DNA from: Nocardiopsis composta
GTDB taxonomy: Bacteria > Actinomycetota > Actinomycetes > Streptosporangiales > Streptosporangiaceae
Reading direction: 5' to 3'
DNA length: 64,000 nt
NCBI RefSeq assembly: GCF_014200805.1
Contig: NZ_JACHDB010000002.1
Span: forward strand, 248,001-312,000
Both the position numbers and the translations under genes were made by a program. The notes under the pieces are model-generated. The model made no database searches. It was not told where the DNA came from and saw only the letters and a program-made list of their open reading frames with translations. Positions 31,175 to 45,808 of this stretch are shown piece after piece; within the stretch, counting starts at the first letter, position 1, and each line of letters starts with the position of its first letter.

Positions 31175-31768
31175 ATGAGGAAAACGCGTGCCGTGCCCAC
31201 CGACTGGCGTCTGGAGATCGAGCGGAGCGGCTACTACCCCGGCCTGGTGATCGACGCGGTCGGCACCGCCCTCGGCGGCGAGAGCGCCGAGGCCTTCGTC
31301 GTCCACCACGAGGCCACGTTCGACCCGGCCATGGAGATGCGCCGGCACATCACCGTGCTGCTGCTGACCCCGACCCGCCTCGTCGTCTGCCACACCGACG
31401 AGCACCCGGCGGGCGAGGGCGCGGAGCGCCCGCACGCCTCCACCACCACCGACGCGATCGGGCTCGGCAACATCCAGTCGGTCGCGCTCACCCGGGTCGT
31501 CGCCGACCCGGCCGAGTACACCCCGGGCACGCTGCCCAGCGAGGCGGTGCTCAGCATCAGCCTCAGCGTGAACTGGGGCGCGATCGCCCACATCGACCTG
31601 GAGCCGGCCTCCTGCGCGGACGAGTCCTGCGAGGCCGACCACGGCTACACCGGCGCCATCACCGCGGAGCCGCTCACCCTGCGGGTCAGCCAGGCCGCCG
31701 ACGGCGCGGACGCCGTGGCCACCGTGATCAACTTCGCCGACGTCCTGTCCGCCGCCACAGCCCGCTGA
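31175..31768 (+). CDS. DUF5998 family protein
   Basis: A 197-aa cytoplasmic actinobacterial protein of unknown function. Recognisable segments are RLEIERSGYYPGLVIDAV, EAFVVHHEATFDPAMEMRRHITVLLLTPTRLVVCHTDEH and the late SCADESCEADHGYTGAITAEPLTLRVS. The HHEATF segment and the alternating hydrophobic strands suggest a beta-rich fold. Genes of this family are usually directly upstream of the alkaline-phosphatase-type enzyme, as here (51 nt gap). ATG 31175 is used, with the purine-rich GGGAGGGGGCAGG as the likely ribosome-binding site. Confidence 0.85.
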   Translation: MRKTRAVPTDWRLEIERSGYYPGLVIDAVGTALGGESAEAFVVHHEATFDPAMEMRRHITVLLLTPTRLVVCHTDEHPAGEGAERPHASTTTDAIGLGNIQSVALTRVVADPAEYTPGTLPSEAVLSISLSVNWGAIAHIDLEPASCADESCEADHGYTGAITAEPLTLRVSQAADGADAVATVINFADVLSAATAR

Positions 31769-31819
31769 CCGGCCGCGGGCGGCGCGGCGGGCATCCCCGA
31801 TCCCGTTCAGGAGGCCACG

Positions 31820-33007
31820 TTGAGCACTGCAGGTCCGAGCGGCGGCGCGGCGGGCGCCGCGGACGCCCCCTTCGAGGCCCCGCGCTACGGCGCCGGATCC
31901 CTGGCCGACCTGGCGCCGTCGGTGCTGGCCTCGCTCGGGGTCCGGGGCGAGCCGAACGTGCTCGGCCTGCCCCCGGTCCGCCGCGCCTGCGTGCTGCTCA
32001 TCGACGGGATGGGCTGGGAGCTGCTGCTGGCCCACCGGGAGCACGCACCGTTCCTGTCCTCGCTGATCGACGCCCCGGCGACGCGCCCCGCGCTCACCGC
32101 GGCCTTCCCCACCACCACCGCGACCAGCCTCACCACCTTCGGCACCGGCGCGGTCCCCGGCCACCACGGCATCGTCGGCTACAAGGTCGTCGTCCCCGGT
32201 ACCGACACCGTCCTCAACCAGCTCCGCTGGGGCGAGGAGAGCGGGGTCGACCCCGAGGAGTGGCAGCCGCTGACCACCGCCTACCAGCGCGCCGAACGCG
32301 CCGGGGTGACCACCGGCTACGTCGCCTCCGCCGCCTACGAGCACAGCAGGCTCACCCGGGCCACCGCGCGCGGCAGCGGCTACCTGCCGGCCGACGACCT
32401 CACCTCGGTCGCGGTGCGCACCGCGGCGGCGCTGACCCGGGGCGAGCGCTCCCTGGTCTTCGCCTACCACCCCGACCTCGACGGCTACGGGCACCGGTTC
32501 GGGATCGCCTCCGACCACTGGCGTATCCACCTGGGGCAGGTGGACCGGCTGGTCGAGCAGATCGCCGGCGCGCTGCCGCCCGACGCGGCGCTGTACATCA
32601 CCGCCGACCACGGCATGGTCGACTCCGACCCCGCCCAGCGGGTCGACCTGGAGGCCGACCCCGAGCTCCGGCGCGGCGTGCGGGTCGTCGCGGGAGAGGC
32701 GCGGATGCGCCAGGTCTACACCGAGCCCGGGGCCACCGAGGACGTCCGCGCGGCCTGGGCCGAGCGGCTCGGGCCGGCCGCCCTGGTGCTCACCCGGGAG
32801 GAGGCCGTCGCCGCGGGCTACTACGGCCCGGCGACCGACGGCGCGGTCCGCGAGCGGATCGGCGACGTGCTGGCCGTCGCCCGCGGCAGCGCCACCCTGG
32901 TCCTGCCCGAGGCGGAACCGCTGGAGAGCGGCCTGGTCGGCCAGCACGGCTCGCTGACCCCCGCCGAGCTGAGCATCCCGCTGCTGGCCGCGACCACCGT
33001 GCGCTGA
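31820..33007 (+). CDS. Alkaline-phosphatase-fold nucleotide pyrophosphatase/phosphodiesterase
   Basis: A 395-aa metal-dependent hydrolase. Metal and nucleophile motifs are LIDGMGWE, the TTTATSLTTFGTG loop with the nucleophilic Thr, HPDLDGYGHRFG and ITADHGMVD, and the last metal ligand in VGQHGSLTP. No signal peptide is present, so it appears intracellular, unlike classical secreted NPPs. The TTG at 31820 is supported by AGGAGG 5 nt upstream. It probably forms an operon with the DUF5998 gene. The natural substrate is unknown. Confidence 0.88.
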   Translation: MSTAGPSGGAAGAADAPFEAPRYGAGSLADLAPSVLASLGVRGEPNVLGLPPVRRACVLLIDGMGWELLLAHREHAPFLSSLIDAPATRPALTAAFPTTTATSLTTFGTGAVPGHHGIVGYKVVVPGTDTVLNQLRWGEESGVDPEEWQPLTTAYQRAERAGVTTGYVASAAYEHSRLTRATARGSGYLPADDLTSVAVRTAAALTRGERSLVFAYHPDLDGYGHRFGIASDHWRIHLGQVDRLVEQIAGALPPDAALYITADHGMVDSDPAQRVDLEADPELRRGVRVVAGEARMRQVYTEPGATEDVRAAWAERLGPAALVLTREEAVAAGYYGPATDGAVRERIGDVLAVARGSATLVLPEAEPLESGLVGQHGSLTPAELSIPLLAATTVR

Positions 33008-33055
33008 GCCGGCGGCGCGGCCGGGGTGCCCCTGTCGCCCCGGGCGGCGGTGGCT

Positions 33056-33061
33056 TAGGGT
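33056..33061 (+). promoter_or_regulatory. -10 box of a probable leaderless transcript (peroxiredoxin)
   Basis: TAGGGT at 33056-33061 is 7 nt before GTG 33069. An alternative in-frame GTG at 33060 falls inside the box, which argues for 33069 as both transcription and translation start. Confidence 0.45.
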
Positions 33062-33068
33062 GGCGGCC

Positions 33069-33542
33069 GTGGACATCGGTGACCATGCCCCCGACTTCTC
33101 GCTGCCCGACCAGCACGGCGAACCGCGCGACCTGCGCGGGCTGCTGGCCGACGGCCCGCTGGCGCTCTTCTTCTACCCCGCGGCGATGACCCCGGGGTGC
33201 ACCGCGGAGAGCTGCCGCTTCCGCGACCTCTCGGCGGAGTTCGCCGAGCTCGGCGCGGGCTGCGCCGGGATCAGCGCCGACCCGGTGGACCGCCAGGCCG
33301 CCTTCGACGGCCGGCACGGCCTCGGCTTCCCGCTGCTGTCCGACCCGGACGGGACCGTCGCCCGGAGCTACGGGGTGCGGCGGACGGCCCCCGGCCTGTC
33401 CGCGCTGGCGCCCACCCGCAGGCACACCTTCGTCATCGACACCGACCGCACGGTGCTGCAGGTGGTGCGGAGCGAGATCCGGATGAGCGCGCACGCCGAC
33501 GGGGCCCTGGAGGCGCTGCGCGCCCGCCGCGCCCGCGGCTGA
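33069..33542 (+). CDS. Peroxiredoxin, BCP/PrxQ type
   Basis: A 157-aa thiol peroxidase that reduces hydrogen peroxide and alkyl hydroperoxides. The peroxidatic Cys44 in PAAMTPGCTAESC and the resolving Cys49 form the CX4C arrangement of atypical 2-Cys PrxQ/BCP enzymes. TPGCT and the Arg in the later TRRHTFVID are conserved. The start at 33069 (MDIGDHAPDFSLPDQ) matches the family N-terminus. It sits downstream of the phosphatase gene with its own promoter-like box. Confidence 0.9.
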   Translation: MDIGDHAPDFSLPDQHGEPRDLRGLLADGPLALFFYPAAMTPGCTAESCRFRDLSAEFAELGAGCAGISADPVDRQAAFDGRHGLGFPLLSDPDGTVARSYGVRRTAPGLSALAPTRRHTFVIDTDRTVLQVVRSEIRMSAHADGALEALRARRARG

Positions 33543-33612
33543 GCACCGCGGCCCGCAGCGGTCCACCACCCGAGCAGACCGGCACCGAGACGACGGAAAG
33601 GGACGACGCCAG

Positions 33613-34404
33613 ATGGCGGAACCGGACAGCGGGCGACCGCTGGTGCGGCGCGATTCCGACCGCGGGATCGCCACCATCACCCTGGACTCCGAGCACAACC
33701 GCAACGCGCTGTCCGCGCGGCTGCGCACCGAGCTCGCCGCGGAGCTCGCCGCGGCGATGGCCGACGACGGCGTGCGCGCCGTGGTGCTCACCGGCGCGGG
33801 CCGGGTGTTCTGCGCCGGGGCCGATCTGAAGGAGGTCGGCGAGCAGCTCGCCGGGAAGGAGCCCGACCCGGCCGCGCCCGGCATGGCGGAGATCTTCTCC
33901 GCGATCATGGAGGCGCCCAAGCCCGTGGTGGCCAGGCTCAACGGCACCGCGCGGGCCGGCGGGCTCGGCCTGGTGGCGGCCGCCGACATCGCGATCGCCC
34001 CGGAGGAGACCGAGTTCGCCTTCTCCGAGGTGCGCATCGGGGTGGTCCCGGCGATGATCTCCATCCCGGTCTCGGTGCGGATGACCGACCGGGCGATGAC
34101 CCGCTACTTCCTCACCGGCGAGGTGTTCGGCGCCCGCGAGGCGGCCGCCTCCGGCCTGCTCACCGAGGCCGTCCCGGCCGGGGAGCTGGACGCCGCCACC
34201 GATGCGGTGCTGGACGGCCTGCGCGCGGCCGCGCCCGGCGCGCTCACCGGCGCCAAGGCCCTGCTCGGCGCGGACGGAGCGGAGGAGCGCGGCAAGGCGT
34301 TCGCCCGGATGGCCGAGCTGTCCGCCCGCTATTTCGCCAGTGAGGAGGCGGCCGAGGGACGGGCCGCGTTCTTCGAGAAACGCAAGCCGAAGTGGGTGCT
34401 GTAA
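33613..34404 (+). CDS. Enoyl-CoA hydratase/isomerase family protein
   Basis: A 263-aa crotonase-fold enzyme. CoA-binding and oxyanion-hole motifs are GRVFCAGADLKEV and NGTARAGGLGLVAAADIAIA; FAFSEVRIGVVPAMIS provides one catalytic glutamate. The first of the two glutamates of classical hydratases appears replaced (Leu in GGLGL), so hydratase activity on simple enoyl-CoA is uncertain. A methylglutaconyl- or leucine-degradation-type role is possible. It is coupled to the MBL gene by a 1-nt TAATG overlap. Confidence 0.85.
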   Translation: MAEPDSGRPLVRRDSDRGIATITLDSEHNRNALSARLRTELAAELAAAMADDGVRAVVLTGAGRVFCAGADLKEVGEQLAGKEPDPAAPGMAEIFSAIMEAPKPVVARLNGTARAGGLGLVAAADIAIAPEETEFAFSEVRIGVVPAMISIPVSVRMTDRAMTRYFLTGEVFGAREAAASGLLTEAVPAGELDAATDAVLDGLRAAAPGALTGAKALLGADGAEERGKAFARMAELSARYFASEEAAEGRAAFFEKRKPKWVL

Positions 34405-35066
34405 TGGGAGGCGTGACCTACTCCGGAGATACGCGGGTCGGCGGACCCGCCGACACGCGCGACCTGTCCGAACTGACCATCAGCAAGCTCGCCGTCGGGG
34501 GCATGGACAACAACGTCTACCTGCTCCGCTGCAAGAGGACCGGCGAGGCGGCGCTGATCGACGCCGCGGACGAGGCCGACCGCATCCTGGACCTGATCGG
34601 TGACGACGGGCTGGCCCGGGTGATCACCACGCACCGGCACGGCGACCACTGGCAGGCCCTGGCCGAGGTGGTGGGCACCACCGGCGCCCGCACCGTGGCG
34701 CACCCGGCCGACGCCGGCGAACTCCCGGTCTCCGTCGACGACGCGGTGGAGCACGGCGACCGCATCCCGGTCGGCGAGGCCGAACTGCGGGTCATCCACC
34801 TCCGCGGCCACACCCCGGGGTCGATCGCACTCCGCTACGACGACCCCTCGGGCACCGTCCACCTGTTCACCGGGGACAGCCTGTTCCCCGGGGGCGTCGG
34901 CAAGACCTGGTCCGACGCGGACTTCCGGTCGCTGCTGAGCGACGTCGAGGAGCGCATCTTCGCCGAACTCGGCGACGACACCTGGGTCTACCCGGGGCAC
35001 GGCAAGGACACCACCCTCGGGGCCGAACGCCCCCACCTGGAGGAATGGCGCGCCCGCGGCTGGTGA
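34404..35066 (+). CDS. Metallo-beta-lactamase-fold hydrolase (glyoxalase II-like)
   Basis: A 220-aa MBL-fold hydrolase. The metal motif is THRHGDHW, with later ligands in LRGHTPGSIAL, FTGDSLFPGGVGKT and VYPGHGKDTT. This set is typical of hydroxyacylglutathione hydrolase-like proteins; in actinomycetes the thiol partner would be mycothiol or CoA rather than glutathione (inference). The ATG at 34404 overlaps the preceding stop. A GTG 9 nt further in is an alternative. It ends in a terminator. Confidence 0.85.
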   Translation: MGGVTYSGDTRVGGPADTRDLSELTISKLAVGGMDNNVYLLRCKRTGEAALIDAADEADRILDLIGDDGLARVITTHRHGDHWQALAEVVGTTGARTVAHPADAGELPVSVDDAVEHGDRIPVGEAELRVIHLRGHTPGSIALRYDDPSGTVHLFTGDSLFPGGVGKTWSDADFRSLLSDVEERIFAELGDDTWVYPGHGKDTTLGAERPHLEEWRARGW

Positions 35067-35070
35067 CCCC

Positions 35071-35105
35071 GGGCGGCCCGCCGGCGCGCTCCGCGCGGGC
35101 CGCCC
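35071..35105 (+). terminator. Terminator hairpin after the MBL gene
   Basis: Perfect 11-bp stem, GGGCGGCCCGC (35071-35081) / GCGGGCCGCCC (35095-35105), 4 nt after the stop. Confidence 0.7.
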
Positions 35106-35246
35106 GCACCTGTCCCGCCCACCCGCGCCACCGCCCGTTGGAGAAACAAGGGCATCCCGTGGCCGGCACCCGCCCGGGGGGGCCGCGCTCCCGAACCCCG
35201 TCGGAACAGCGGCTCGGGAGGCTGGGGCGCTGGGCGGGACCCCGGG

Positions 35247-35645
35247 TCAGCCCGGGAGCGGGCGGCGGCCGATGAAGCCCAGTTCGCTGCGGTGGTACCA
35301 GGCGAGCTCGGGTTCGCCCTCCAGCCAGCAGAGCCGGACGGGGGCGCCGTCGAGGAGGGCCGGCAGGTCGAGCAGGATGGGGGCCAGGCCCTTCACCTCC
35401 ACCCCGTTCTCCGGGAACCAGGCGCGGAGCTCTTCGAACCGGGCCTCCAGGCCCTTGAGCTCGGCCCGGCCGCCCAGCTCCGAGGCGCCGGAGGAGCGCA
35501 GGTCGGCGGCGAGCTCGGCGAGGTCGGCGCGGAGCTCCACCAGCTCCGCGGTGCGCCGGCGGATCTCCGGCATCAGATCGCGGGCCTCCTCCAGGGTGAA
35601 CACCCGCGGTCCGGACGGAGAGGCGTCTTCGGGATCGGAAGTCAT
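35247..35645 (-). CDS. DUF2203 family protein
   Basis: A 132-aa soluble protein. DUF2203 features are the opening FTLEEARDLMPEIRRRTAELVELRADLAEL and the end VRLCWLEGEPELAWYHRSELGFIGRRPL. The first half is a long amphipathic helix, probably coiled coil. Function is unknown. It lies 57 nt downstream of the CHAT protease gene in the same direction and may be co-transcribed, though the family occurs widely without it. Confidence 0.85.
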   Translation of the reverse strand: MTSDPEDASPSGPRVFTLEEARDLMPEIRRRTAELVELRADLAELAADLRSSGASELGGRAELKGLEARFEELRAWFPENGVEVKGLAPILLDLPALLDGAPVRLCWLEGEPELAWYHRSELGFIGRRPLPG

Positions 35646-35702
35646 TCCCCGACGGTACGCGCTCCGCCCCGCCGGCGGCGGGTGCCGCGGCCGATCCGGC
35701 CG

Positions 35703-38180
35703 TCAGCCGGCGCCCAGGCAGACGAAGCCGTACGCGGCGAGGTGGTCGGCGACGGCCCGCGCGGGGCCGGCGCCCCCGGCCAGGGCGGCGTGGAAGCGCT
35801 CCATCGGACCGCGGATGCAGCCGTCCCGGACCGGGAGCACGCCGGCGACGACCGTGCGCCCGCCGCGCGCGATGAGCGCCGCGGCCAGCCCCAGCGGGGC
35901 GCCGGAGGGGGCCGGCACCGACCGCCCCGTCCAGCAGGACGACAGCACGGTCAGCCGCGGCGCCCCGGGAAGCAGCTCCACGTCGTAGGCGAACAGCGGG
36001 CCGTCGGCGAAGAGGATCCCGGAGAGCATCGGCGTCCCGGACGGAACCGAGCCGTGCCCGATCAGGTGGGCGAGCGGCGCGCCGGGCAGCCGGCGCAGCA
36101 CCGCCGCGGTGCCGGCCCGCTCCAGCACCTCGGCCCCGCCGTACCGGTTCCGCAGCGCGCGCAGCTCCTCCCGGCCGCCGTCCAGCCCCGGGCCGCAGGC
36201 GAGCAGCGCCGGGCCGGCGGCCGCCCCGCGGTCGGCGTCCAGCGCCGCCCAGGCGCCCGGGGACGGGGCGATGCAGACCTCCCGGCCGCGCAGCGAGGGG
36301 AGCAGCCCCCACGGCAGCCCCTGCGCGTAGGGCGCGGGGAGGAGGACCAGCGGGCGGTCGCCGACGGCCGCCGCCACCGGCCTCAGCAGCAGCCGCTCCA
36401 CCGCGTCGGTGTCGCCCGCCGGCAGCGGCGCGCCCGGATCGCCGTCCAGCGCCGCCCGCGAGCGCGCGGCGAAGAGCAGCTTCGCGACGGCGTCCTCGGC
36501 CTCCCCGGCGTCCGGCAGCGGGTGCACCCGCACGTCGCCGCCGGCGACCGTGACCGCGGCGTGCACCCCGCCGCTCCGGGCATAGCCGATGAACGCCCTG
36601 TCGCCGAGCCGCTCCCGCAGCGCTTCGGCCGCGCCGCCGGAGGGCTCCGCGCGACGCCCCGGCCGGCACCGGTGCCACTGCGCGGACAGCAGCCGCCCGG
36701 ACGGCCGGCGGAACTCCTCCGCGGCCCCGGGGTCCGCCCCGGCGCGCAGCCGGGCGCCGCGGAACCGGTCCACCGACCCGGCCCAGGTCCTTGCGGTGCA
36801 TCCCCCGGTGGGGGCGGCGGAGCCGGCCCGGGCGGTGAACTCCAGCCAGTCGAGCGCCGCAGCCCCGCACCCGGCCGCCAGCGCCCGGGCCAGGGCGGCC
36901 GCGGCGATCTCCCGCTCCTGGGGGAAGGCGTGTCCGGCGGCTTCCATGTGCCCGGGCAGCCGCGCGGACCGCACCGCGCAGAGCAGGCGCAGCGCTCCGG
37001 AGTGGTCTCCCCGCTCGACCCGCTCCAGCGCGGCGGAGCGGGCCCGGCCGGCCCGCCCGCCGTCCGCGGTCGGCGGCAGGTACGGCACGCACCGGGCGGC
37101 GGCGCGCAGCGTGTCCGCCCGGAGCGCACCGGTGCGGAGCGGCGCGGCGGGGGCACCGGCACCGGGCGGCGGGCCGACCGGGGAGGCGGGAAGGGAGGGG
37201 ACGGCGGCGAGGAAGGGGGCGGGGTCCGGCCGGAGCAGGCAGAGCGCGGCCCACTCCACGGTGCGGGCCAGCGCGGACCAGAGCGACTCCGGCGGGAAGG
37301 AGCGCAGCAGGCGGCGGGCGAGGTCGAGGGCGCGGGAGTGCTCGCCCCGGCTGAGCCGGTACTTGGCCGCCAGCAGCAGGGCGGAGGCGGCCTCCGCCCC
37401 GGGGGCGCCGCGGTCGGGGGAGGCGGAGGCGAGGCAGTGCGCAGCCTCGTCGCGCATCCCCGCGCTCAGCAGGGCGTCGGCCCGGTCCAGGGCGAGCGCC
37501 GTGCGGCGGCCGGGGGACGCGGTCGCCTCGGCCGCCGCGAAGAGCTCCAGGGCGCGCGCGGTGTCCCCGTGCCAGCCGGCCAGGCAGGCGAGGTTCTGCA
37601 GTACGGCGCCGCGCAGATAGCCCAGCGCCCGCTGCTCGGCCAGGCCGAGGGCGCGCTGCAGGTCGTCCTCGGCTTCGGCGCCGCGGCCGGCGTAGAGGAG
37701 CGCCCGGCCGCGGTTGCACAGCAGGGCCGGAGGGAAGTGGCCGCCGTCGTCGGGAAGGGCGGTCAGGGCCGCGCCGAACTCCTCGGCCGCGGCGGCGAAC
37801 CGGCCCCGCTGGGCGTGGTCGACCCCGAGGCGGAGCAGGAGCGCGGCCGGGGGAGAGGCGGAGCCGCCCAGGCGCGGACCGGAGAGCCCGGGGCCGCCGT
37901 GCTGGGACCGGATGGCCAGCCGGGCCCGGCGCGCCCGCTCCACCGCGCGGTGCTGCCCCGCCGCCGCGCCGATCGCCGCCGCCCGACGCAGCACCCGCTC
38001 GGCCCCGGCGGTGTCGCCCTGCTCGTACAGGCAGAGGCCGAGCAGCCGGGTGGCCTCGGCCCGAGCGGCCGGCCCCGGCCGGGAGGCCAGCGTCCGCTCG
38101 GCGGTCCGCCGGGCGGCGCCCGGGTCCCGGGCCAGCAGGGTGGCGGAGTCGAAGAGGTCGTCGCTGGGCAGCACCGTCAC
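35703..38180 (-). CDS. TPR-CHAT caspase-like protease
   Basis: An 825-aa cytoplasmic protein. The N-terminal half is helical with TPR-like units (such as LLRLGVDHAQRGRFAAAAEEFGAAL, about 110-270). The C-terminal region is a CHAT domain (about 560-825), a clan CD caspase-like cysteine protease fold. The dyad is visible as His709 in HLIGHGS and Cys749 in LSSCWTG. In known systems (Craspase's Csx29, gasdermin-activating proteases) CHAT enzymes cleave a partner after a signal; here no partner is proved. GTG 38180 is preferred over 38189 because GAAGGG then lies at normal distance. The sigma factor and regulatory-like protein about 1.4 kb upstream form the usual actinomycete neighbourhood of such genes. 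Confidence 0.88.
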   Translation of the reverse strand: MTVLPSDDLFDSATLLARDPGAARRTAERTLASRPGPAARAEATRLLGLCLYEQGDTAGAERVLRRAAAIGAAAGQHRAVERARRARLAIRSQHGGPGLSGPRLGGSASPPAALLLRLGVDHAQRGRFAAAAEEFGAALTALPDDGGHFPPALLCNRGRALLYAGRGAEAEDDLQRALGLAEQRALGYLRGAVLQNLACLAGWHGDTARALELFAAAEATASPGRRTALALDRADALLSAGMRDEAAHCLASASPDRGAPGAEAASALLLAAKYRLSRGEHSRALDLARRLLRSFPPESLWSALARTVEWAALCLLRPDPAPFLAAVPSLPASPVGPPPGAGAPAAPLRTGALRADTLRAAARCVPYLPPTADGGRAGRARSAALERVERGDHSGALRLLCAVRSARLPGHMEAAGHAFPQEREIAAAALARALAAGCGAAALDWLEFTARAGSAAPTGGCTARTWAGSVDRFRGARLRAGADPGAAEEFRRPSGRLLSAQWHRCRPGRRAEPSGGAAEALRERLGDRAFIGYARSGGVHAAVTVAGGDVRVHPLPDAGEAEDAVAKLLFAARSRAALDGDPGAPLPAGDTDAVERLLLRPVAAAVGDRPLVLLPAPYAQGLPWGLLPSLRGREVCIAPSPGAWAALDADRGAAAGPALLACGPGLDGGREELRALRNRYGGAEVLERAGTAAVLRRLPGAPLAHLIGHGSVPSGTPMLSGILFADGPLFAYDVELLPGAPRLTVLSSCWTGRSVPAPSGAPLGLAAALIARGGRTVVAGVLPVRDGCIRGPMERFHAALAGGAGPARAVADHLAAYGFVCLGAG

Positions 38181-38574
38181 GGGCAGCACCCTTCAAAGCC
38201 GGCGGGGGGGAGGAGCGCGGTCCGCTCCGCCGTCCGGCGGAGCGTTCCGTACGCCCCCTGCTTAACAGCCCCGGACCGCCCGGTGGGAGGGGCGACCGGG
38301 ATTTCCGCCCCGACCCCGGCCGCGGATCCCGATAAAGCCGGAGATCTCTCCGCCGCCGAGACAAGGTCGCAACCACCCCAACGGGCCACCCGCAACCCCC
38401 GCAAAACCCTCCCGGAGGGCCCTGCCGCCCGCCACCGCCGCCCTCTCCCGGCCATCGGAAGCGGCCCCTCGCCCCGGGCCGCCCGGGAGGGCGGCGGTTC
38501 CCTTGGCGGACGGCCGGAGCATCAGTCAGGCGGAGAGGCGGATCTCCGGGCGGTGCCGCGGCCGATCCCCGCCG
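38181..38574. other. Gene-free 394 bp upstream of the CHAT gene
   Basis: It contains an 8-bp hairpin, GCTCCGCC (38224-38231) / GGCGGAGC (38236-38243), in the presumed 5' untranslated region, and a lower-GC segment near 38330-38410 that may hold the promoter. No gene was recognised. Confidence 0.35.
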
Positions 38575-39099
38575 TCATGCGGTGACGGGGAGGGGACGGC
38601 CGCCGGTGAGGGCGAGGAGTTCGCGGTGGGTGGTGGGGAAGACGGTGTTCGGGGTGCCCGCGGCGGCCCAGATGCGGGGGTGGTCGCGCAGTGCCTCGTC
38701 GACGACGGTGAGCAGCGGTTCGGGGTGGCCCACCGGGGCGACGCCGCCGATGGCCTGGCCGGTGGCGGAGCGGACCTGCTCGGGGGTGGCGCGCTTCAGG
38801 GCGGGCAGGCCGAGCCGGGCGGCCAGCGCCGCGGTGTCCACCCGGTGCCGGCCGCTGGTGAGGACGAGGACCGGGGTGTCCTCGGCCATGAACACCAGGC
38901 TGTTGGCGATCGCGCCGACCTCGCAGCCCAGGGCCTGGGCGGCCAGCGCGGCGGTGCGGGCCGAGGCGTCCAGTTCGACGATCCCGCCGGGGATCCCGGC
39001 GGCCTTCAGGGCCTCGGCGACGATGCGGCTGCGCTCCGGCAGCTCCTCCGGGCGCCGCTCGTTCAGGGCGGTGGGTCCGGGCGTCTGGTCCGCGGTCAT
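38575..39099 (-). CDS. YbaK/ProX-type aminoacyl-tRNA deacylase
   Basis: A 174-aa editing-domain protein that hydrolyses mischarged aminoacyl-tRNA, typically Cys- or Ala-tRNAPro. Family features are IAAQ-like AALAAQALGCEVGAIANSLVF, PVLVLTSGRHRVDTAALAARLG, the GQAIGGVAPVGHPEPL loop and the end WAAAGTPNTVFPTTHRELLALTGG. ATG 39099 is chosen from the family N-terminal length. It stands between the CHAT gene and the regulatory-like gene with about 0.4 kb gaps on either side, so it probably has its own promoter and may have been inserted into the module. Confidence 0.87.
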   Translation of the reverse strand: MTADQTPGPTALNERRPEELPERSRIVAEALKAAGIPGGIVELDASARTAALAAQALGCEVGAIANSLVFMAEDTPVLVLTSGRHRVDTAALAARLGLPALKRATPEQVRSATGQAIGGVAPVGHPEPLLTVVDEALRDHPRIWAAAGTPNTVFPTTHRELLALTGGRPLPVTA

Positions 39100-39561
39100 G
39101 CTTGCCTGCCTTCCTGGGTGAGTCCTACCGTTCGCGATGGTGGGAACGCGCGGGCGGGACGGGGGCGGCTCCCATGCCGGCCACCGCCGACGGCTCCGGT
39201 CGCTCCCGCCGCCCTGCCGCTCCTTCCGCACCGCCGATCGGGCTCTGCGGACCGTCGCCGTGCGGGGCGATGGCGGGCGGAAGGACCCGCGCCGCACATC
39301 GTCCCGGCCCCGGGCGGGCGTGCCCTTCGCGGTCGCGTGGCCGCAGATCCCGCACCCCCCGGCATGTGCCCCGTCCCGCGTCCCGGCGGAAGCATCGGGC
39401 GGCCTCCTCGAAGGGGGCGGAGGGTCGGATCGTCCGACGAGACTACTCCCGGGGCGGGGGCGAAGCGACGTCCGGGGGCGCGGGTTCCGAAGCGCCGTCG
39501 AACGGCGTTCCCACTGGTCCGAGGTGCGTTCCCGCGCGGGCCGGAGGGCGCGGGGCGCTGC
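39100..39561. other. Gene-free 462 bp between ybaK and the regulatory-like gene
   Basis: Open frames here have no coding bias. The region would contain the ybaK promoter and the 3' end of the sigma-factor operon. No convincing hairpin or repeat was found. Confidence 0.35.
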
Positions 39562-40161
39562 TCAGACGGTCAGCCAGGGGGTCGCGACCACGGGGCGGCC
39601 GTCCGCGAGGAAGAGGAGCCGGACCGGGCCGCGGGGGACGCCGCGGGTCACGAAGGCGCCGTCCCGGTCGAGGGGGGCGTCCCGGACCGAGGCCGGGTCG
39701 CGCACCTCCACGCTGCCGGCGCGCGCCGGGGAGAGCCGCCCGGCGATGTCCCGGTGGCCCCGGTTCGGGGTGACCTCCAGCCGGATCTCCGCCTCCCCGG
39801 TGCGGAGCAGCAGGTAGCGGGGGCCGTCGTCCGGGACGTCCCGCAGACCGCCCGCGGAGGCCTCCACCGAGTCGCCGACCAGGTCGGCGGTGGGCACGCC
39901 GGGGGTGCGCGCGGCGAAGGCGGCGGCCGCCGCCGCCAGCTCCTCCGCCTCGACCGGCCGGGCCTGCGGGTGCACCGTGCGCAGCCCGGCCATGAACAGC
40001 TCCAGGTCGGGGTCGTCCGCCGGTTCCGGCCCCCCGCCGGGGGCGCCGCCGCGCGCGGAGCGGCCGCCGCGCGCGGAGCGGCCGCCGGGCGCGCGCTCCT
40101 CCGCAGGGGGGCCGCCGGGGCCGTTCGGGTCGTCGTCGGGAGGGCGCTGGTCACGATCCAC
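39562..40161 (-). CDS. Carboxypeptidase-regulatory-like (beta-sandwich) protein downstream of a sigma factor
   Basis: A 199-aa protein. The first 45 residues are Gly/Arg/Pro-rich and disordered; a helix (DLELFMAGLRTVHPQARPVEAEELAAAAAAF, about 50-85) follows. The C-terminal half forms strands: RYLLLRTGEAEIRLEVTP, then DIAGRLSPARAGSVEVRD and GAFVTRGVPRGPVRLLFLADGRPVVATPWLTV. The last part resembles carboxypeptidase-regulatory-like folds seen in the middle gene of actinomycete sigma-factor/CHAT loci. Its GTG start overlaps the sigma-factor gene by 11 nt, so the two are translationally coupled. It might act as an anti-sigma or substrate/adaptor protein; this is inference. Confidence 0.7.
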   Translation of the reverse strand: MDRDQRPPDDDPNGPGGPPAEERAPGGRSARGGRSARGGAPGGGPEPADDPDLELFMAGLRTVHPQARPVEAEELAAAAAAFAARTPGVPTADLVGDSVEASAGGLRDVPDDGPRYLLLRTGEAEIRLEVTPNRGHRDIAGRLSPARAGSVEVRDPASVRDAPLDRDGAFVTRGVPRGPVRLLFLADGRPVVATPWLTV

Positions 40162-40777
40162 GGCGCGGTGCCCTTTCTCGTTCGCTCGGAGGGTCGTCGG
40201 GCGGGGAGCCGCCGGGTTCTCCGAACTCGTCGGCGAGCAGCCGCCTCAGCCGGCGGCGGGCGCGCCGGCGGACGGCCCCGACCCGGGAGAGGGGGAGCCG
40301 GGCGGCGTCGGCCACGGCGGCCGCGGGCGCCCGCGGCCAGTGCAGGTCCAGCGCGGCCACGGTGCGGTCGGGCTCGCCCATGGCGGAGATGGCCGCGCGG
40401 ACCAGGCGGCCCTGCTCCGCGGCGAGGACCAGCGCCTCCGGGGTGTCGTGGTCCACGGCGTGCAGCGTGCCCGGGTCGACCGGGGCGAGCCGGGCGGCCA
40501 TTCGGGCCTGCTTGGCGCAGGCGCTGTGCGCGGTGCGCGCGATCCAGGATCCCACCCGCTCCGGTTCGCGGATCCGGTCCAGGTGCTCGGCGAGCCGGCA
40601 CCACACCAGCTGCCGGGCGTCCGCGGCGTCCTGGTGCGGCAGCCGGTAGCAGCGCACGATCGCGTCGACCATCAGCGCGTACCGGCGGAGCAGCGCCTCC
40701 ACCGCGGACGGGTCGCCGGCGCGGGCGCGCTCGACCAGCTCACCCGGTGAAGGGCCGTTACAGGTCTGGTCACTCAC
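40151..40777 (-). CDS. Sigma-70 family (ECF-like) RNA polymerase sigma factor
   Basis: A 208-aa alternative sigma factor. Region 2 reads LLRRYALMVDAIVRCYRLPHQDAADARQLVWCRLAEHLDRIREPERVGSWIARTAHSACAK (about 28-90); region 4 reads AISAMGEPDRTVAALDLHWPRAPAAAVADAARLPLSRVGAVRRRARRRLRRLL (about 133-190). There is no region 1 or 3, as in ECF factors. A QPR-like tail follows. The start is GTG 40777; the open frame runs farther upstream with poor coding character. Together with the overlapping downstream gene it probably drives transcription of the CHAT module or a stress regulon. Confidence 0.85.
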   Translation of the reverse strand: MSDQTCNGPSPGELVERARAGDPSAVEALLRRYALMVDAIVRCYRLPHQDAADARQLVWCRLAEHLDRIREPERVGSWIARTAHSACAKQARMAARLAPVDPGTLHAVDHDTPEALVLAAEQGRLVRAAISAMGEPDRTVAALDLHWPRAPAAAVADAARLPLSRVGAVRRRARRRLRRLLADEFGEPGGSPPDDPPSERERAPRRGS

Positions 40778-40994
40778 CCGCACCCCAAGTAGACTCGCGG
40801 AACCTGCCACACCTGAGGACCACGCTAACCGCAGTGCGCCGACCGTGAGCGGGCATGCCGGATCCGGCCAAGAGCGACCTGGTGCCCGAGTGGCCGATGG
40901 GGCACAATGGGCCACGGAGAACTCTCGAACGGACGGCTCCTCCGCGGTGAACGAGGGCGTCGGGGAAGCGCACTCGTTCGTATCAGGAGGTTCG

Positions 40995-41489
40995 GTGTCC
41001 GCACGTGGCGTCTTGTATGTCCACTCCGCGCCCGCGGCGCTGTGCCCACACGTCGAGTGGGCGGTCGCGGGTGTCGTCGGCGTGCCCGTCAAACTCGACT
41101 GGGATGATCAGCCCGCCGCCCCGGGAACCCACCGCGCCGAGCTCAACTGGCAGGGCGCGCCCGGCACCTCCGGTGCGATCACGTCCGCCCTCAACGGCTG
41201 GCAGCGGTTGCGCTTCGAGGTGACCGAGGAGGCCACCCCGGGCTGCGACGGCGTCCGCTACAGCTACACCCCCGCGCTCGGCATCTTCACCGCGGTCACC
41301 AGCGCCTCCGGCGAGGTCCTGGTGCCCGAGGCGCGGCTGCGCAGCGCGATGGAGCGCGCCGCGGCCCAGGAGGTCGACCTCGTCGAGGAGCTGGACCGGC
41401 TCACCGGCCGGCTGTGGGACGAGGAGCTGGAGCCGTTCCGCTACGCCGGCGACGGCGCCCCGGTCCGGTGGCTGCACGCCGCCGGCTGA
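40995..41489 (+). CDS. DUF3145 family protein
   Basis: A 164-aa actinobacterial protein of unknown function. Its opening SARGVLYVHSAPAALCPHVEWAVAGVVG, the WDDQPAAPGTHRAEL region and GWQRLRFEVTEEATPGCDGVRYSYTPALGIF are typical, and it ends in a helix with LVEELDRLTGRLWDEELEPFRYAG. GTG 40995 is supported by AGGAGG 4 nt upstream, although the frame is open farther up. It is divergent from the sigma-factor gene, sharing a short promoter region at 40778-40994. Confidence 0.88.
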   Translation: MSARGVLYVHSAPAALCPHVEWAVAGVVGVPVKLDWDDQPAAPGTHRAELNWQGAPGTSGAITSALNGWQRLRFEVTEEATPGCDGVRYSYTPALGIFTAVTSASGEVLVPEARLRSAMERAAAQEVDLVEELDRLTGRLWDEELEPFRYAGDGAPVRWLHAAG

Positions 41490-41580
41490 GCGCGTCCCGG
41501 CGGGGCGCCCGGTCGGCGGCGCGGGCCGCCGGCTGAGAACCCGGCCGGTCCGGTGCGGGCCGCCTCCGGCGGGCCCGTGC

Positions 41581-42051
41581 TCAACGGCGGCCGGGGCACC
41601 CCTCCCCGCTGCGCGGAGGCCGCCGGCCGAAAGCGCCCATGCAGGTGAAGACGGCCATGAAGCCGATCGGGACCAGCGGCCAGAAGACGATCAGCTCCTG
41701 GGCGATGACGCTGGTGACGCCCCAGATCGCGATGAGCACCACGGAGATCGCGGCGAGGCCGCGCCACGGCTCCAGGCGGCGGCGCCAGGCCTCGGCGCGG
41801 AGCCGCGCGGGGCCCGGGGGCGGTTCGGCCCGCTCCGGGTGGAGCACCTCCTCCGGGGGGTCGGGCAGGTCGCGGGTGAGGCCGGCCAGGTCGCCCACGG
41901 TGACCGAGCCCAGCGCCAGGTCCAGGCGCTCCCGGTACTCCTCCAGCGTCAGCCGGCCCTCCTGGAGGGCGTGGCCGAGGCGGCGCGCGACGACGTCGCG
42001 GTCGGCGTCGGAGGCGCGCATCCTCTCCGGGGGAAGCGGTCCGTCACCCAT
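41581..42051 (-). CDS. DUF1707 (SHOCT-like) membrane protein, paralogue 1
   Basis: A 156-aa protein. The N-terminal DUF1707 domain reads MRASDADRDVVARRLGHALQEGRLTLEEYRERLDLALGSVTVGDLAGLTRDLP (about 11-63). After a Pro/Arg-rich linker two hydrophobic segments (LAAISVVLIAIWGVTSVI and LIVFWPLVPIGFMAVFTCM) form a helical hairpin. DUF1707 resembles short oligomerising domains and is abundant in actinobacteria; function is unknown. It is the last of three tandem paralogues read leftward. Confidence 0.85.
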   Translation of the reverse strand: MGDGPLPPERMRASDADRDVVARRLGHALQEGRLTLEEYRERLDLALGSVTVGDLAGLTRDLPDPPEEVLHPERAEPPPGPARLRAEAWRRRLEPWRGLAAISVVLIAIWGVTSVIAQELIVFWPLVPIGFMAVFTCMGAFGRRPPRSGEGCPGRR

Positions 42052-42085
42052 CTCCGTGTCACCCCCTCGGGTCCGGCGGGCGGGT

Positions 42086-42550
42086 TCACCTTCGGCTGTC
42101 GGAGCTCTCATCCGGCCAGATGGCGGCGGCGACCAGGATCGCCGCCCAGATGCCCAGCGGCACCAGCGGCCAGTAGGGCAGCAGCGCACCGCCCATGATG
42201 CTGGTGACGCCCCAGATCCCGGTCATGATGACCGCGCCGCCGAGCCACCACCGCCACTCGTCGGTCCATTCCTTCCACGCCGAGGGGGCCGGCCCCAGCG
42301 CGGTGGCCGCGGGAGCGTCCGGTTCCTCCTCGACGGCGGGCACGGCCGCCGGCGCCGGTTCCGGGAGGTCCGCGGTGAGGGCCGCCAGGTCGCCGAGGTG
42401 GACGGCGCTCATCGCCGCGTGCAGCCGCTCCTCGTACTCGTCGAGGCGCAGGCGTCCCTCGGCAAGGGCGGTGGCGAGGCGTTCCGCGGTGGCGTCCCGA
42501 TCGGCGTCCGAGGCGCGCATGCGCTCCTCCGGGACGCGTTCATCCTCCAC
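42086..42550 (-). CDS. DUF1707 (SHOCT-like) membrane protein, paralogue 2
   Basis: A 154-aa protein. It has the same design as its neighbours: MRASDADRDATAERLATALAEGRLRLDEYEERLHAAM, acidic/Pro linker, and two membrane segments (GGAVIMTGIWGVTSIMGG and LPYWPLVPLGIWAAILVAAAIW). GTG 42550 gives the usual dozen residues before the domain; the ATG 30 nt downstream with GGAGGAG upstream is an alternative. The gap to paralogue 1 is only 34 nt, so they probably share a transcript. Confidence 0.83.
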   Translation of the reverse strand: MEDERVPEERMRASDADRDATAERLATALAEGRLRLDEYEERLHAAMSAVHLGDLAALTADLPEPAPAAVPAVEEEPDAPAATALGPAPSAWKEWTDEWRWWLGGAVIMTGIWGVTSIMGGALLPYWPLVPLGIWAAILVAAAIWPDESSDSRR

Positions 42551-42682
42551 CGACGCCCACCCCCCTCGCACAAGATGATGGGGAGATTCACGATACGCGG
42601 GACTGTGCCGAGAGAAAAGGCCGCCGGCCGTCCGGCGGCGGACGGCCGGCGGCCGGAGGCGGCCCCGGGCCGGTGGTTTCCA

Positions 42683-42754
42683 CCCCCGGTGATCGCGGCG
42701 CTGCGGCCCCGCCGGAGCGCTCCGGCGGGGCCGCAGCGCCGCGATCACCGGGGG
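42683..42754. repeat. Perfect 72-bp palindrome between DUF1707 paralogues
   Basis: Two 36-base arms (42683-42718 and 42719-42754) are exact reverse complements with no spacer; the centre is GGAGC|GCTCC. It starts 26 nt beyond the stop of paralogue 3 and 133 nt before the start of paralogue 2, so it could act as a very strong terminator or as a cruciform. A degenerate relative lies near 43835-43885. Confidence 0.9.
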
Positions 42755-42779
42755 CAGGGGCGGGACCGGTGCCCGCCGC

Positions 42780-43250
42780 TCAGGAACCGCACTTGCTGCT
42801 CTTGCCGTCGCCGAAGAGCATTCCGGCGATCAGGACCGCGGCCCAGATGCCCAGCGGGATGAGCGGCCAGAACGGCAGGAACTGCCCGCTGACGATGCTG
42901 GTGACGGTCCAGATGCCGATCATGATGACCGCGCCGCCGCCCCAGGACCGCCACTCCTCCAGCTGCCCGCGCCAGAAGGACGGCCGGGCGGGCGGGGCCA
43001 TCGCGGCGAGGTCGACCGGGCCCTCCGCGGAGACGGGGGCGGGGGCGGCGCCGGCGGCCGGGGGCAGGTCGACGGTGAGCACCCGGAGGTCGTCCGCGGT
43101 GACCGCGGTCATCGCCGCGTCCAGCCGCTTCTGGTACTCCTCCATGTCGAGGCGGCCCTCGGAGAGCGCGGCGGCCAGGCGCTGCGCCGTCACGTCCCGC
43201 TCGGCATCGGACACGCGGATGTCCCCGCGGTGCTGCGGCTGGGGGTCCAT
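42780..43250 (-). CDS. DUF1707 (SHOCT-like) membrane protein, paralogue 3
   Basis: A 156-aa protein. It begins MDPQPQHRGDIRVSDAERDVTAQRLAAALSEGRLDMEEYQKRLDAAM, with a Pro/Ala linker and the two-helix membrane part GGAVIMIGIWTVTSIVSG / LPFWPLIPLGIWAAVLIAGMLFG, then a short KSSKCGS tail. ATG 43250 has GAGGAGG at good distance. The membrane part is nearly identical in pattern to paralogue 2, indicating recent duplication. Confidence 0.85.
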   Translation of the reverse strand: MDPQPQHRGDIRVSDAERDVTAQRLAAALSEGRLDMEEYQKRLDAAMTAVTADDLRVLTVDLPPAAGAAPAPVSAEGPVDLAAMAPPARPSFWRGQLEEWRSWGGGAVIMIGIWTVTSIVSGQFLPFWPLIPLGIWAAVLIAGMLFGDGKSSKCGS

Positions 43251-43490
43251 CGGGCGCCTCCTCGGAATCCGCTCTCCGCCTGATCGGCGAAGACGCTGCT
43301 CACCACCGAGGCTAGGCCCGCCGCGGGCGGCGGGCAATGGACCGGTGGGCCGGTTCGGGGTCCTCCGAAAGGAGGACGCCGCGGCCCCGGCGGGCCGGCG
43401 GGCTCGGGGTCGTTCCGCGCTCCGCCCCGGGCGCGCATCTGCGGAGGCGCTGCTCACGGCGCCCGAGCCGGCCCTGCGGCGGGTCCGGGG

Positions 43491-43815
43491 CGGCCCCTGA
43501 GATCGCCGACGGGGGTTTCCGGCGGCCTCTCCGACCCGCGCCCACCCGCGGGGCGGCGCTCCCCGGCCGAGGAGTGCACCCGCCCGCCCCCGCCCTGGGG
43601 GAGGGGCGATCGCCTCGGACCTCCCTGCCCGCCGCGGCCCCCTGCGGCCGGCGGGACGGCGGCCGGGCAGCGCACGGCCCGCCGCCCGCCCCCTGCCCTG
43701 TGCAGCCTCCCGCAGCGGCCACGGCGGCGCCGGGCTCCGGGGCGCTGCTTCTCCCGGCCCGCGGCCGGGTCTTCCGGGCGGCCGTCCGAACGCCCGACGG
43801 TCTCTGAGGGGCCGG
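43491..43815. repeat. Dispersed non-coding repeat, copy 1
   Basis: The left end (43491-43521, around GATCGCCGACGGGGGTTTCC) matches 53819-53849 at 27 of 31 bases. The right part (about 43704-43815, with GCAGCGGCCACGG, CGGCCCGCGGCCG and CGGGCGGCCGTCCG) matches about 54133-54236. An internal 24-base block (43608-43633) matches 54052-54076 in inverted orientation. Confidence 0.6.
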
Positions 43816-43834
43816 GTGCGTCCCTCCGGCGGTG

Positions 43835-43885
43835 ACCGCCCCGCCGGAGCGCTCCGGCAGGGCCGCGGTGCCGGTCATCGCCCCG
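43835..43885 (-). terminator. Imperfect palindrome related to the 72-bp element
   Basis: Centred on GGAGC|GCTCC, with CCCCGCC/GGCAGGG arms; the right arm continues GGCCGCGGTGCCGGTCATC, which resembles the right arm of the palindrome at 42683-42754. It lies 60-110 nt past the stop of the inositol-phosphatase gene and may end that operon. Confidence 0.45.
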
Positions 43886-43946
43886 GGGCCGTTCCCGATC
43901 GGCGGTCCGGGGCCGGGGGCGGAGGAGGGCCGTCCGGCCGGCGGTC

Positions 43947-44762
43947 TCAGCCGCCCCGGCTCCAGGAGCGGTGCCAGCGGGCCACCTCGGCGCAGGCGGC
44001 CTCGTCGGTGCCGGCGATCAGGCCGCCGCTCTCGTACCCCCCGCGGTGGTCGAACCGGGTGCCGTCCAGCCGGAGCAGCCCCGCCCCGGTCTCCTCCAGT
44101 ACGAGCTGCGGCGCGGCCACGTCCCAGTCGCGGATCGGGACGTCCTTGACGAAGAGCTGCGCCGCCCCCTCGGCGATCCGGCACAGCTTCAGCCCGATGC
44201 TGCCGGACTCCAGGTACTCGCCGAACCCGAAGTGCCGGTAGACGGCGAGCGCGATGCCGCGCGGCTCCGGGGTGTTGTCGATGAGCGCCCCGGTGCCGAC
44301 CGGGGCGGGCGAGAGCCGCGGCAGGTGGTCCCCGTTCCGGGTGGCGCCCACGCCGCGCACCGCCGCGTACATCACGTCGTTCTCCGGCGCGTAGATCGCC
44401 GAGACCACCGGGACCCCGCCCTCCATCAGCGCGGCCTGGGTGACGTAGCCGGGGTAGCCGTGCACGAAGCTGGCGGTGCCGTCGATCGGGTCGATCATCC
44501 AGTGCACGTCGGGGCGGTCGGCGACCAGCGAGGCGGAGTCCTCCTCGCTGAGCACCGGCACCCCCGGCTCCAGGGCGCGGAGCCGGTCGCTCAGCGCGCC
44601 GTGCGCCATGGTGTCCGCCTCCGCCTTGAACTGCGACCCCTCCCAGACGCCGCTGGTCGCGCCGGCGTCGGAGCGCCACTCGCGCAGCAGCACCCCGACC
44701 TCCAGCACCGCCCCGGTGAGCGCGGTGGCCAGGGTGTCCAGCCGGAGTCTTCGCCGGCTCAC
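43947..44762 (-). CDS. Inositol monophosphatase-family phosphatase
   Basis: A 271-aa Mg2+-dependent, Li+-sensitive-type phosphatase. Metal-binding motifs are VLSEEDSA, MIDPIDGTASFVHGYPGY and DWDVAAPQLVLEETGAGLL. The family includes inositol-1-phosphatase, histidinol-phosphatase HisN and 3'-phosphoadenosine phosphatase CysQ; the sequence alone does not separate them. GTG 44762 overlaps the stop of the ATP-grasp gene (GTGA), showing tight coupling and a joint pathway. Confidence 0.87.
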   Translation of the reverse strand: MSRRRLRLDTLATALTGAVLEVGVLLREWRSDAGATSGVWEGSQFKAEADTMAHGALSDRLRALEPGVPVLSEEDSASLVADRPDVHWMIDPIDGTASFVHGYPGYVTQAALMEGGVPVVSAIYAPENDVMYAAVRGVGATRNGDHLPRLSPAPVGTGALIDNTPEPRGIALAVYRHFGFGEYLESGSIGLKLCRIAEGAAQLFVKDVPIRDWDVAAPQLVLEETGAGLLRLDGTRFDHRGGYESGGLIAGTDEAACAEVARWHRSWSRGG

Positions 44763-45808
44763 CGGGCCGCCTGCGCGATCACCGGCGCCTCGCACTCCCG
44801 GGCGGGCCCGGAGCCGGCGGGGGAGATGCCGTACGCGGAGAACTTCTCCTCGTCGATGAACTCGTCGGCCCAGCGGCGGACCATCACGACGCCCTCCCGC
44901 CACTCGTCTCGCAGCCGGGGGCCGTCGGCCACCGCCTGCCCCAGCAGCCCGGCGATCTCGTCCACCCCGGCGGCCACGGTCAGCGGCGCGGTGGAGGAGA
45001 ACCGGGGGTTGATCTCGAAGATCCGCGGTTCGCCGTCGGCGTCCAGGCTGAGCTGGACGTTGAACGGCCCGTCGGCCTGCAGCTCCTCCTGGACGGCCCG
45101 GCAGACCTCGTCCACCCGCCGGTTCCGCCGGGTCACGGCGAACTTGGTGACGCCCCGCTTGAGCACCACCTCCTTGGGCACCACCGCCTGCACCTCGCCG
45201 TCCCGCCAGACCACCACGGAGACGGTGAACTCCTGGCCGGGCACGCACTCCTGGACGATCAGGTCCTCGGTGGCGTAGCCGGTCTCGGTGAGCAGCCCGC
45301 CCAGCTCCTCGGCGGAGGCGCACACCGAGACGCCCCGGCTGCCCCGCCCGGAGCGCGGCTTGACCACCACCGGCGCCTCCGGGGAGCCGGCCCACTCCGC
45401 GGCCAGCGCGGTCCGCGGGACCGGCAGCCCCACCTCGGCCAGGCGCCGCATCAGCACGTACTTGTCCAGGCAGGTCGCGATGAACTCGGTGCGGGGCAGC
45501 AGCACGTGCAGCCCCTCCAGGGCGAGTTCGCTCGCGGCCAGCAGCTCCTCGTCGACCAAGGGGATCAGCGCGACCGCGTTCTCCTTGGCGCATATGCCGC
45601 GCAGTTCGGGAACGAACTCGGGACTGGACCCCGGCGGCACCAGATGGCACTCGTCGGCGAGGTACAGGCCCGGCGCGGTGGCGTCGATATCGGTCGCGAT
45701 GACCCGGTACCCCAGGCGCCGCAGGTGGATGATGGTGCCGGGCGTCGCCGCCGATCCCGCGGTCGTTATCACCACGGTCGGCCGCTCGGAAGACTGTGCA
45801 GCGGTCAC
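44759..45808 (-). CDS. ATP-grasp ligase domain protein
   Basis: A 349-aa carboxylate-amine/thiol ligase-type enzyme. An N-terminal Rossmann-like part (TVVITTAGSAATPGTIIHLRRLGYRVIATDIDATAPGLYLAD) resembles the pre-ATP-grasp domains of carbamoyl-phosphate-synthase-like proteins. The ATP-grasp core has APVVVKPRSGRGSRGVSVC, the hinge LIVQECVPGQEFTVSV, and the metal site EIFEINPRFSS (PRIFEINPRFSST). The substrate is unknown. GTG 45808 has GGAGAGG upstream. Partnered with the phosphatase gene; together they could build or process a phosphorylated metabolite. Confidence 0.85.
   Translation of the reverse strand: MTAAQSSERPTVVITTAGSAATPGTIIHLRRLGYRVIATDIDATAPGLYLADECHLVPPGSSPEFVPELRGICAKENAVALIPLVDEELLAASELALEGLHVLLPRTEFIATCLDKYVLMRRLAEVGLPVPRTALAAEWAGSPEAPVVVKPRSGRGSRGVSVCASAEELGGLLTETGYATEDLIVQECVPGQEFTVSVVVWRDGEVQAVVPKEVVLKRGVTKFAVTRRNRRVDEVCRAVQEELQADGPFNVQLSLDADGEPRIFEINPRFSSTAPLTVAAGVDEIAGLLGQAVADGPRLRDEWREGVVMVRRWADEFIDEEKFSAYGISPAGSGPARECEAPVIAQAAR

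Follow-up and report, generated by a model that had tools for sequence, protein, structure and literature searches.

A conserved unit of an ECF54-like sigma factor, a 199-aa protein and a TPR-CHAT protease in Nocardiopsis composta and other Actinomycetota

The described systems that bear most closely on the locus analyzed here are the type III-E CRISPR circuit and the ECF54 group of extracytoplasmic function (ECF) sigma factors. The locus lies in a 64,000-nt stretch of the Nocardiopsis composta genome (contig NZ_JACHDB010000002.1, positions 248,001 to 312,000; hereafter, the window) and comprises genes for an ECF-type sigma factor, a middle protein of 199 amino acids (aa) and a TPR-CHAT protease. 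In the type III-E circuit, the TPR-CHAT protease Csx29 cuts Csx30 and so relieves the inhibition of CASP-sigma (PMC10028731; here and below, statements on published work apply to the portions of the cited papers that were covered). The conserved neighbors of ECF54 are a carboxypeptidase, a subtilase and a CHAT protein, according to a 2022 review (PMC8999054) that cites two surveys, Huang 2015 and Casas-Pastor 2021, known here through that review alone; its section 3.3 presents control of ECF54 by proteolysis without an anti-sigma factor as a proposal. Because this context is already in print, the view of an earlier, sequence-only reading of the window (the first-pass annotation) that the trio had not been described is wrong as far as the linkage is concerned.

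The sigma factor, the 199-aa protein and the TPR-CHAT protein form a conserved unit in which the CHAT catalytic dyad is intact. The window locus is best explained as an ECF54-like signaling module of Actinomycetota that lacks the S8 subtilase. In the mechanism that we favor, with a probability of roughly 0.4, the CHAT protease would cut the 199-aa protein, a putative inhibitor, and thereby free the sigma factor, in a Craspase-like circuit that has no CRISPR RNA sensor. The ECF54 context is already known; a testable mechanism and the trimmed variant present in the window's clade are added here.

Recurrence of the three genes

The family sample consists of 40 stretches around CHAT relatives plus the Nocardiopsis potens locus (L003) and was selected by CHAT; the class stretches were selected by a 199-aa profile, with 40 of the 53 places outside the family taken. 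Relatives of the CHAT protein are present in 53 of the 61 family genomes (E 1e-10 or better), and the order sigma, 199-aa protein, CHAT on one strand is found in 34 of the 41 family stretches (31 by tblastn; L065, L067 and L074 by profiles). Among the seven exceptions, the parts are oriented differently in L070, L071 and L077, a contig end truncates L072, and the CHAT and 199-aa genes of L063 are on separate contigs; no sigma gene is seen in L059 and L061. In L077 (G055:C37), two CHAT genes lie tail to tail with a sigma/199-aa pair on either side; this genome, G055, contains six matches to the CHAT protein.

With start codons set by rule, an exact 4-nt overlap of the sigma and 199-aa genes is the most common arrangement in relatives (15 of 31 family loci), and the 199-aa and CHAT genes overlap by 4 nt in 7 of 32. 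DUF3145 is present in 32 of the 41 family stretches and, therefore, these loci occupy the same (orthologous) position.

Beyond the family, the 199-aa profile has matches in 65 of the 197 genomes of the class; at the level of the phylum it has them in 17 of 198 genomes, of which 12 lie outside the class. In 37 of the 40 non-family stretches, as scripted, the 199-aa gene is immediately preceded by a sigma gene on its own strand; the script missed sigma genes in L125 and L058 that were found by tblastn and profiles. A CHAT gene lies inside 24 of these 40 stretches, and 6 of the 16 stretches without one are shorter than 9 kb. In one family, f19, neither CHAT nor S8 accompanies the sigma/199-aa pair in any of the 7 stretches taken (one of which spans just 4.6 kb), CHAT is encoded somewhere in all 15 genomes that have the 199-aa protein, and S8 is found in 11 of 12 TPR-CHAT stretches located elsewhere in the genome (16 of 20 in the whole set of such stretches). 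The persistence of the sigma/199-aa pair where CHAT and S8 lie elsewhere speaks for the proposed inhibitor-cleavage mechanism. Counting any CHAT domain, not the TPR-CHAT type alone, CHAT is encoded in 48 of the 49 class genomes outside the family that have the 199-aa protein, versus 12 of 50 that lack it (the first 50, by number, of 132 such genomes; Fisher p 1.4e-15, uncorrected for shared ancestry).

The three-gene linkage claimed in the first-pass annotation is thus recurrent, within the family and outside it, and the lack of recurrent linkage that the annotation had named as the contrary outcome is contradicted by the family, class and phylum counts. The view that the genes are merely neighbors can draw on the ybaK gene and the gaps that part them in the window, and on a distance of up to 678 nt between the 199-aa and CHAT genes in members of the window's clade outside the genus. 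Nevertheless, it is highly improbable given the recurrence at three taxonomic levels, the correlated presence and absence of the proteins and the retention of all parts after splitting; chance neighborhood is rejected by the linkage counts.

Components of the unit and the missing subtilase

The CHAT protein matches Pfam PF12770 (8.6e-18, residues 599-814) and TPR_2 (1.3e-8). Its His712/Cys752 dyad, numbered from the GTG at 38189, is conserved without exception in the 41 rows of the CHAT alignment (A3, window included) and is the dyad previously reported as His709/Cys749, which is real and differs only by a start three codons later. The protein is accordingly a predicted clan CD protease with an intact His/Cys pair. 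Among solved structures, the CHAT-domain profile matches the CHAT protein 8rot (6.5e-12), the Csx29 chain (7y9x; 8.6e-5) and four kindred sequences named "CHAT domain protein" (5.5e-5 to 3.9e-4), which we take to be Craspase entries; weaker matches are to separase (0.11) and to a chain named TPR-CHAT (0.17). In an alignment to 7x8a, His712 and Cys752 coincide with H585 and C627, which PMC9729208 names as the catalytic residues of TPR-CHAT. Besides the window gene, the genome contains a single further CHAT match, a short one (G000:C2:158817-159203, L002; 4.2e-7) in a 295-aa open frame.

The sigma factor of the window matches Pfam Sigma70_r2 over the cut-off (1.1e-5), with region 4 models unmatched, and TIGR02937 (sigma70-ECF) at 5.6e-9 and 35.8 bits, below the cut-off of 42.9. 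In the sigma alignment (A2, 34 members; E 0.01), region 2 is recognized in 34 of 34, Sigma70_r4_2 in 5 and Sigma70_r4 in 3, and the full-length profile retrieves structures of ECF sigma factors, with CnrH (4.2e-20) as the best match. Some sigma factors of the S8-less window clade, including that of the window, carry a C-terminal tail.

The 199-aa protein consists of a Gly/Ala/Pro/Arg-rich N-tail, a conserved N-terminal segment, a variable linker and a C-terminal carboxypeptidase-regulatory-like domain. The window protein itself has no Pfam match at E 0.1; CarboxypepD_reg matches 14 of the 33 sequences in the alignment of its family (A1) at E 0.1 or better (best 7.2e-5) and, judged by alignment position, should correspond to the C-terminal half. 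Because these relatives match, the earlier description of the protein as a regulatory-like beta-sandwich is supported through them, but not by a Pfam match of its own. We infer that this CarboxypepD_reg-like protein is the "carboxypeptidase" of the ECF54 review.

A single linker residue, Arg107, is invariant in 33 of 33 A1 rows and present in 87 of 90 distinct rows of a wider set, where its column is flanked by gap and insertion columns in a linker of variable length. Of the 3 exceptions, L120 and L141 have an Arg one residue on and L146 has none. L141 comes from G148, the sole genome of the 49 without CHAT; the genome G172 has 18 CHAT matches, one of them beside the L146 sigma/199-aa pair that lacks the linker Arg. 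A cleavage site can produce this pattern of one conserved Arg among gap columns, and Arg107 is the best candidate for such a site in the 199-aa protein; its conservation may instead reflect a structural role.

The first-pass annotation, in describing a three-gene module, overlooked a subtilase, which many other lineages have as a fourth member but which is absent here. The final S8 counts come from a 12-sequence profile, which replaced an initial one of two sequences and which those 12 match by construction; unrelated subtilases score below 90 bits. Above 150 bits, 22 of 40 family stretches and 28 of 40 class stretches contain a match; in 19 of the former it immediately precedes the sigma gene on the same strand, and in 15 of the latter it also lies directly upstream. 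Across the 12 members aligned, the Asp, His and Ser residues, presumably the catalytic ones, never vary; three members inspected by eye or by hydropathy show no evident signal peptide. With the 12-sequence profile, no S8 gene is found in the window; at E 1e-20, with first-look candidates scored in part, none is found in the window's genome or in 17 of the 18 other clade genomes. The remaining one, G005, has a 76-bit match, and 4 of 4 control genomes exceed 380 bits. In a concatenated three-protein tree of the 62 loci, out of 82, that have all three proteins, the window clade forms one group, with support 1.000, nested among the S8-bearing loci, so the simplest reading is that S8 was lost in this clade. 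One clade locus, L064, ends at a contig edge and its S8 status is unjudged; L066, outside the clade, is likewise without S8. Arg107 is retained in the S8-less members of A1. Thus, S8 alone cannot account for this residue and, should cleavage occur there, the protease responsible is more likely to be CHAT.

A putative sigma factor inhibitor and its proposed cleavage by the CHAT protease

Under the favored mechanism, the 199-aa protein would be made in step with the sigma factor from the overlapping genes, and its conserved N-terminal segment would hold the sigma factor inactive. The TPR part of the CHAT protein would sense an intracellular signal, activating the Cys protease, which would then cleave the variable linker, probably at Arg107. 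Cleavage would destabilize the inhibitor, free the sigma factor and turn on its regulon. Where present, S8 could be a second protease that clears the fragments or is itself activated within the cascade. Besides the persistence of the sigma/199-aa pair, the conserved gene order and strand, the 4-nt overlaps, the co-occurrence of CHAT with the 199-aa protein, the invariant dyad, the Arg107 column and the match of the CHAT profile to Csx29 all favor this mechanism. The link suggested in the first-pass annotation, in which the 199-aa protein would couple CHAT to the sigma factor as a sensor or substrate, would likewise agree with most of the observations.

Several observations weigh against this mechanism. 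No classical anti-sigma domain is matched by Pfam in the 33 A1 members at E 0.1, and at E 1 the 199-aa profile matches neither a Csx30 nor an anti-sigma chain in the solved structures, which presumably include a Csx30 chain; any likeness to Craspase is, therefore, one of the circuit and not of the middle protein. In L146, the Arg is absent though CHAT adjoins. The 199-aa protein is not always paired with a sigma factor, given that in L135 and L143 its gene directly follows a Peptidase_S8 gene (4.8e-17 and 1.4e-24, respectively) and no sigma gene (L135:4668-6500; L143:6053-10468, where a CHAT gene lies divergently beside the pair), and that L180, L181 and L195 are orphan copies with no ECF54-like sigma, S8 or CHAT within ~1.5 kb. 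In a mirror-tree test (33 loci, partial correlations after DUF3145), r is 0.61 for sigma/CHAT, 0.46 for 199-aa/CHAT and 0.29 for sigma/199-aa, each above all 499 permutations, which ignore phylogeny; the supposed inhibitor pair is thus the lowest of the three. ECF54 is described as having no anti-sigma factor (PMC8999054), Craspases cut at non-conserved sites (PMC11106740), and the Asp of separase that binds the P1 Arg is a Lys in Csx29 (TPR-CHAT; PMC9729208). As for a separase-type P1-Arg pocket in the CHAT family, the matching position is ambiguous in the alignment, in which D789 and E675 are invariant.

The highest of the mirror-tree values, that for sigma/CHAT, favors direct proteolysis of the sigma factor by CHAT (and S8 where present), with the 199-aa protein as an adaptor or stabilizer. 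This is the published ECF54 proposal (PMC8999054, section 3.3), and the C-terminal tail of some window-clade sigma factors could serve as a degron. Yet the sigma alignment, inspected by eye, has no conserved variable-linker residue comparable to Arg107, and the 199-aa gene overlaps and follows the sigma gene like a partner gene and remains when CHAT leaves. We consider this alternative doubtful.

The S8/199-aa pairs of L135 and L143, together with the orphan copies and the 199-aa/CHAT correlation, point instead to a protein that is mainly a protease partner (an inhibitor, chaperone or targeting adaptor of S8 or CHAT), the output through the sigma factor being reached by another route. This is, however, unlikely: a sigma gene is directly upstream in nearly all stretches selected by the 199-aa protein itself, and the protein stays in the window clade though S8 is missing. 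The arrangement in L143 and L135 could possibly represent a swap of the controlled partner.

A role as an anti-phage or cell-death device, in which CHAT would sense infection and the sigma regulon or S8 would execute the defense, appears decidedly improbable. CHAT proteases do act in Craspase and in other type III CRISPR defense, three related CHAT proteins weakly match BovA in PADLOC (best 2.2e-6 to 2.4e-5), and three S8 proteins match the PADLOC "subtilase" model (3.8e-16 to 1.4e-8). But the four window proteins have no PADLOC matches, for which reason membership in a PADLOC-listed system is rejected for them. Moreover, the position beside DUF3145 is conserved and only one plasmid record gives a match, a partial one to CHAT, so the locus is unlike mobile defense islands.

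Table 1. Coordinates of the features of the module and its neighbors in the window.
Feature	Position	Strand	Remark
ECF-type sigma factor gene	40151..40777	-	208 aa, GTG start; Sigma70_r2 match; ECF54-like by context
199-aa middle protein gene	39562..40161	-	open reading frame; putative inhibitor of sigma and substrate of CHAT
Sigma/199-aa gene overlap	40151..40161	-	11 nt, read off the sequence
Arg107 codon of the 199-aa protein	39841..39843	-	conserved linker residue; candidate cleavage site
ybaK-like tRNA-editing gene	38575..39099	-	Pfam tRNA_edit; genus-specific insertion, outside the module
TPR-CHAT protease gene	35703..38189	-	828 aa; Pfam CHAT and TPRs
His712 codon of the CHAT protein	36054..36056	-	catalytic (predicted); invariant in 41/41 rows
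Cys752 codon of the CHAT protein	35934..35936	-	catalytic (predicted); invariant in 41/41 rows
DUF3145 gene	40953..41489	+	divergent neighbor, start uncertain; PF11343 3.3e-72

The gene coordinates given in the first-pass annotation for sigma, 199-aa, ybaK and CHAT are borne out (Table 1); of its two overlaps, only that between the sigma and 199-aa genes exists. The 199-aa gene is separated from ybaK by 462 nt (from the ybaK ATG), and ybaK from the CHAT gene by 385 nt. The ybaK-like protein matches tRNA_edit (4.6e-26). All 6 genomes of the genus carry its gene immediately behind the 199-aa gene; among the other family stretches, 1 of 38 contains a distant YbaK match (L061:5577-5915, G031, outside the genus; 31% identity), which lies beside another CHAT gene. 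The ybaK gene is rejected as a member of the module; it is best read as a genus-specific insertion, the passenger that it had been taken for.

Three tandem DUF1707 (SHOCT-like) genes on the - strand (window 41581-43457) lie beside DUF3145, and copies occupy the equivalent place in many relatives. The divergent intergenic region between DUF3145 and sigma (40778-40952) is strikingly conserved across the clade, with blocks around CATTGTGCCCCAT and GGCACCAGG. These blocks may belong to the promoter of either gene, and a search upstream of sigma yielded no conserved promoter or regulon motif. Membrane anchoring of the three window proteins is rejected, the hydropathy of every 19-residue stretch being at most 1.74.

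Comparison with described protease-controlled sigma factors

Within the literature searched, which leaves out the primary ECF54 surveys, the 2022 review (PMC8999054) is the one paper found to name the gene context, and we found neither the 199-aa protein as an anti-sigma factor or substrate nor a comparison of the module with Craspase. Term searches gave no mention of the module in PMC13118837 and PMC8103513 and no CHAT or sigma factor in PMC7159879 (Kaur 2020).

The ECF54 group shares with the window locus an ECF sigma factor, a CHAT gene and a carboxypeptidase(-regulatory) gene in context, without a classical anti-sigma factor, as well as a subtilase in many relatives of the locus. It differs in that the window clade lacks the subtilase, ybaK is inserted and region 4 of the sigma factor is only weakly recognizable; furthermore, the "carboxypeptidase" of the window is a small regulatory-like domain protein, here proposed to be both inhibitor and substrate.

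The EACC2/caspase systems (Kaur 2021, PMC8195603) also combine a caspase-fold protease with an ECF sigma factor and a DUF1822 TPR protein. They involve other protein families, however, and in the portions of that paper covered here no CarboxypepD_reg-like partner is found and the matches to the term "CHAT" are unrelated words. In CalpL/CalpT/CalpS (PMC11229360), a protease cuts an anti-sigma factor and frees the sigma factor, as proposed here, but the protease is a Lon fused to SAVED, not a CHAT protein, and the trigger is cyclic oligoadenylate.

Craspase (Cas7-11/gRAMP, Csx29, Csx30 and CASP-sigma; PMC10028731, PMC9729208) has an analogous complement of a TPR-CHAT protein, a middle protein and an ECF sigma factor; homology is detectable between the CHAT domains, and His712/Cys752 align with the catalytic residues. 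In contrast to Craspase, the window locus has no CRISPR effector among its named neighbors, and its 199-aa protein has no match to the solved Csx30. None of the seven adjoining genes named by Pfam is CRISPR-related, and in window positions 30000-46000, to which the search was confined, there is no CRISPR-like repeat array (one two-copy 57-nt repeat).

We put forward only tentatively, as an idea rather unlikely to hold, that Craspase has a phylum-wide counterpart free of CRISPR in the ECF54 loci, in which TPR-CHAT, joined by a subtilase in many lineages, would cut a CarboxypepD_reg-fold anti-sigma factor at a near-invariant linker Arg and so set the ECF sigma factor free. The type III-E circuit may have borrowed a pre-existing cellular module of protease, anti-sigma factor and sigma factor. 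For the control of ECF54, a candidate inhibitor, a candidate protease and a candidate residue, Arg107, can now be named; if the mechanism is true, the protease/inhibitor/sigma logic of the CRISPR-linked CHAT and Lon proteases would have a precedent in these loci that is cellular and widespread.

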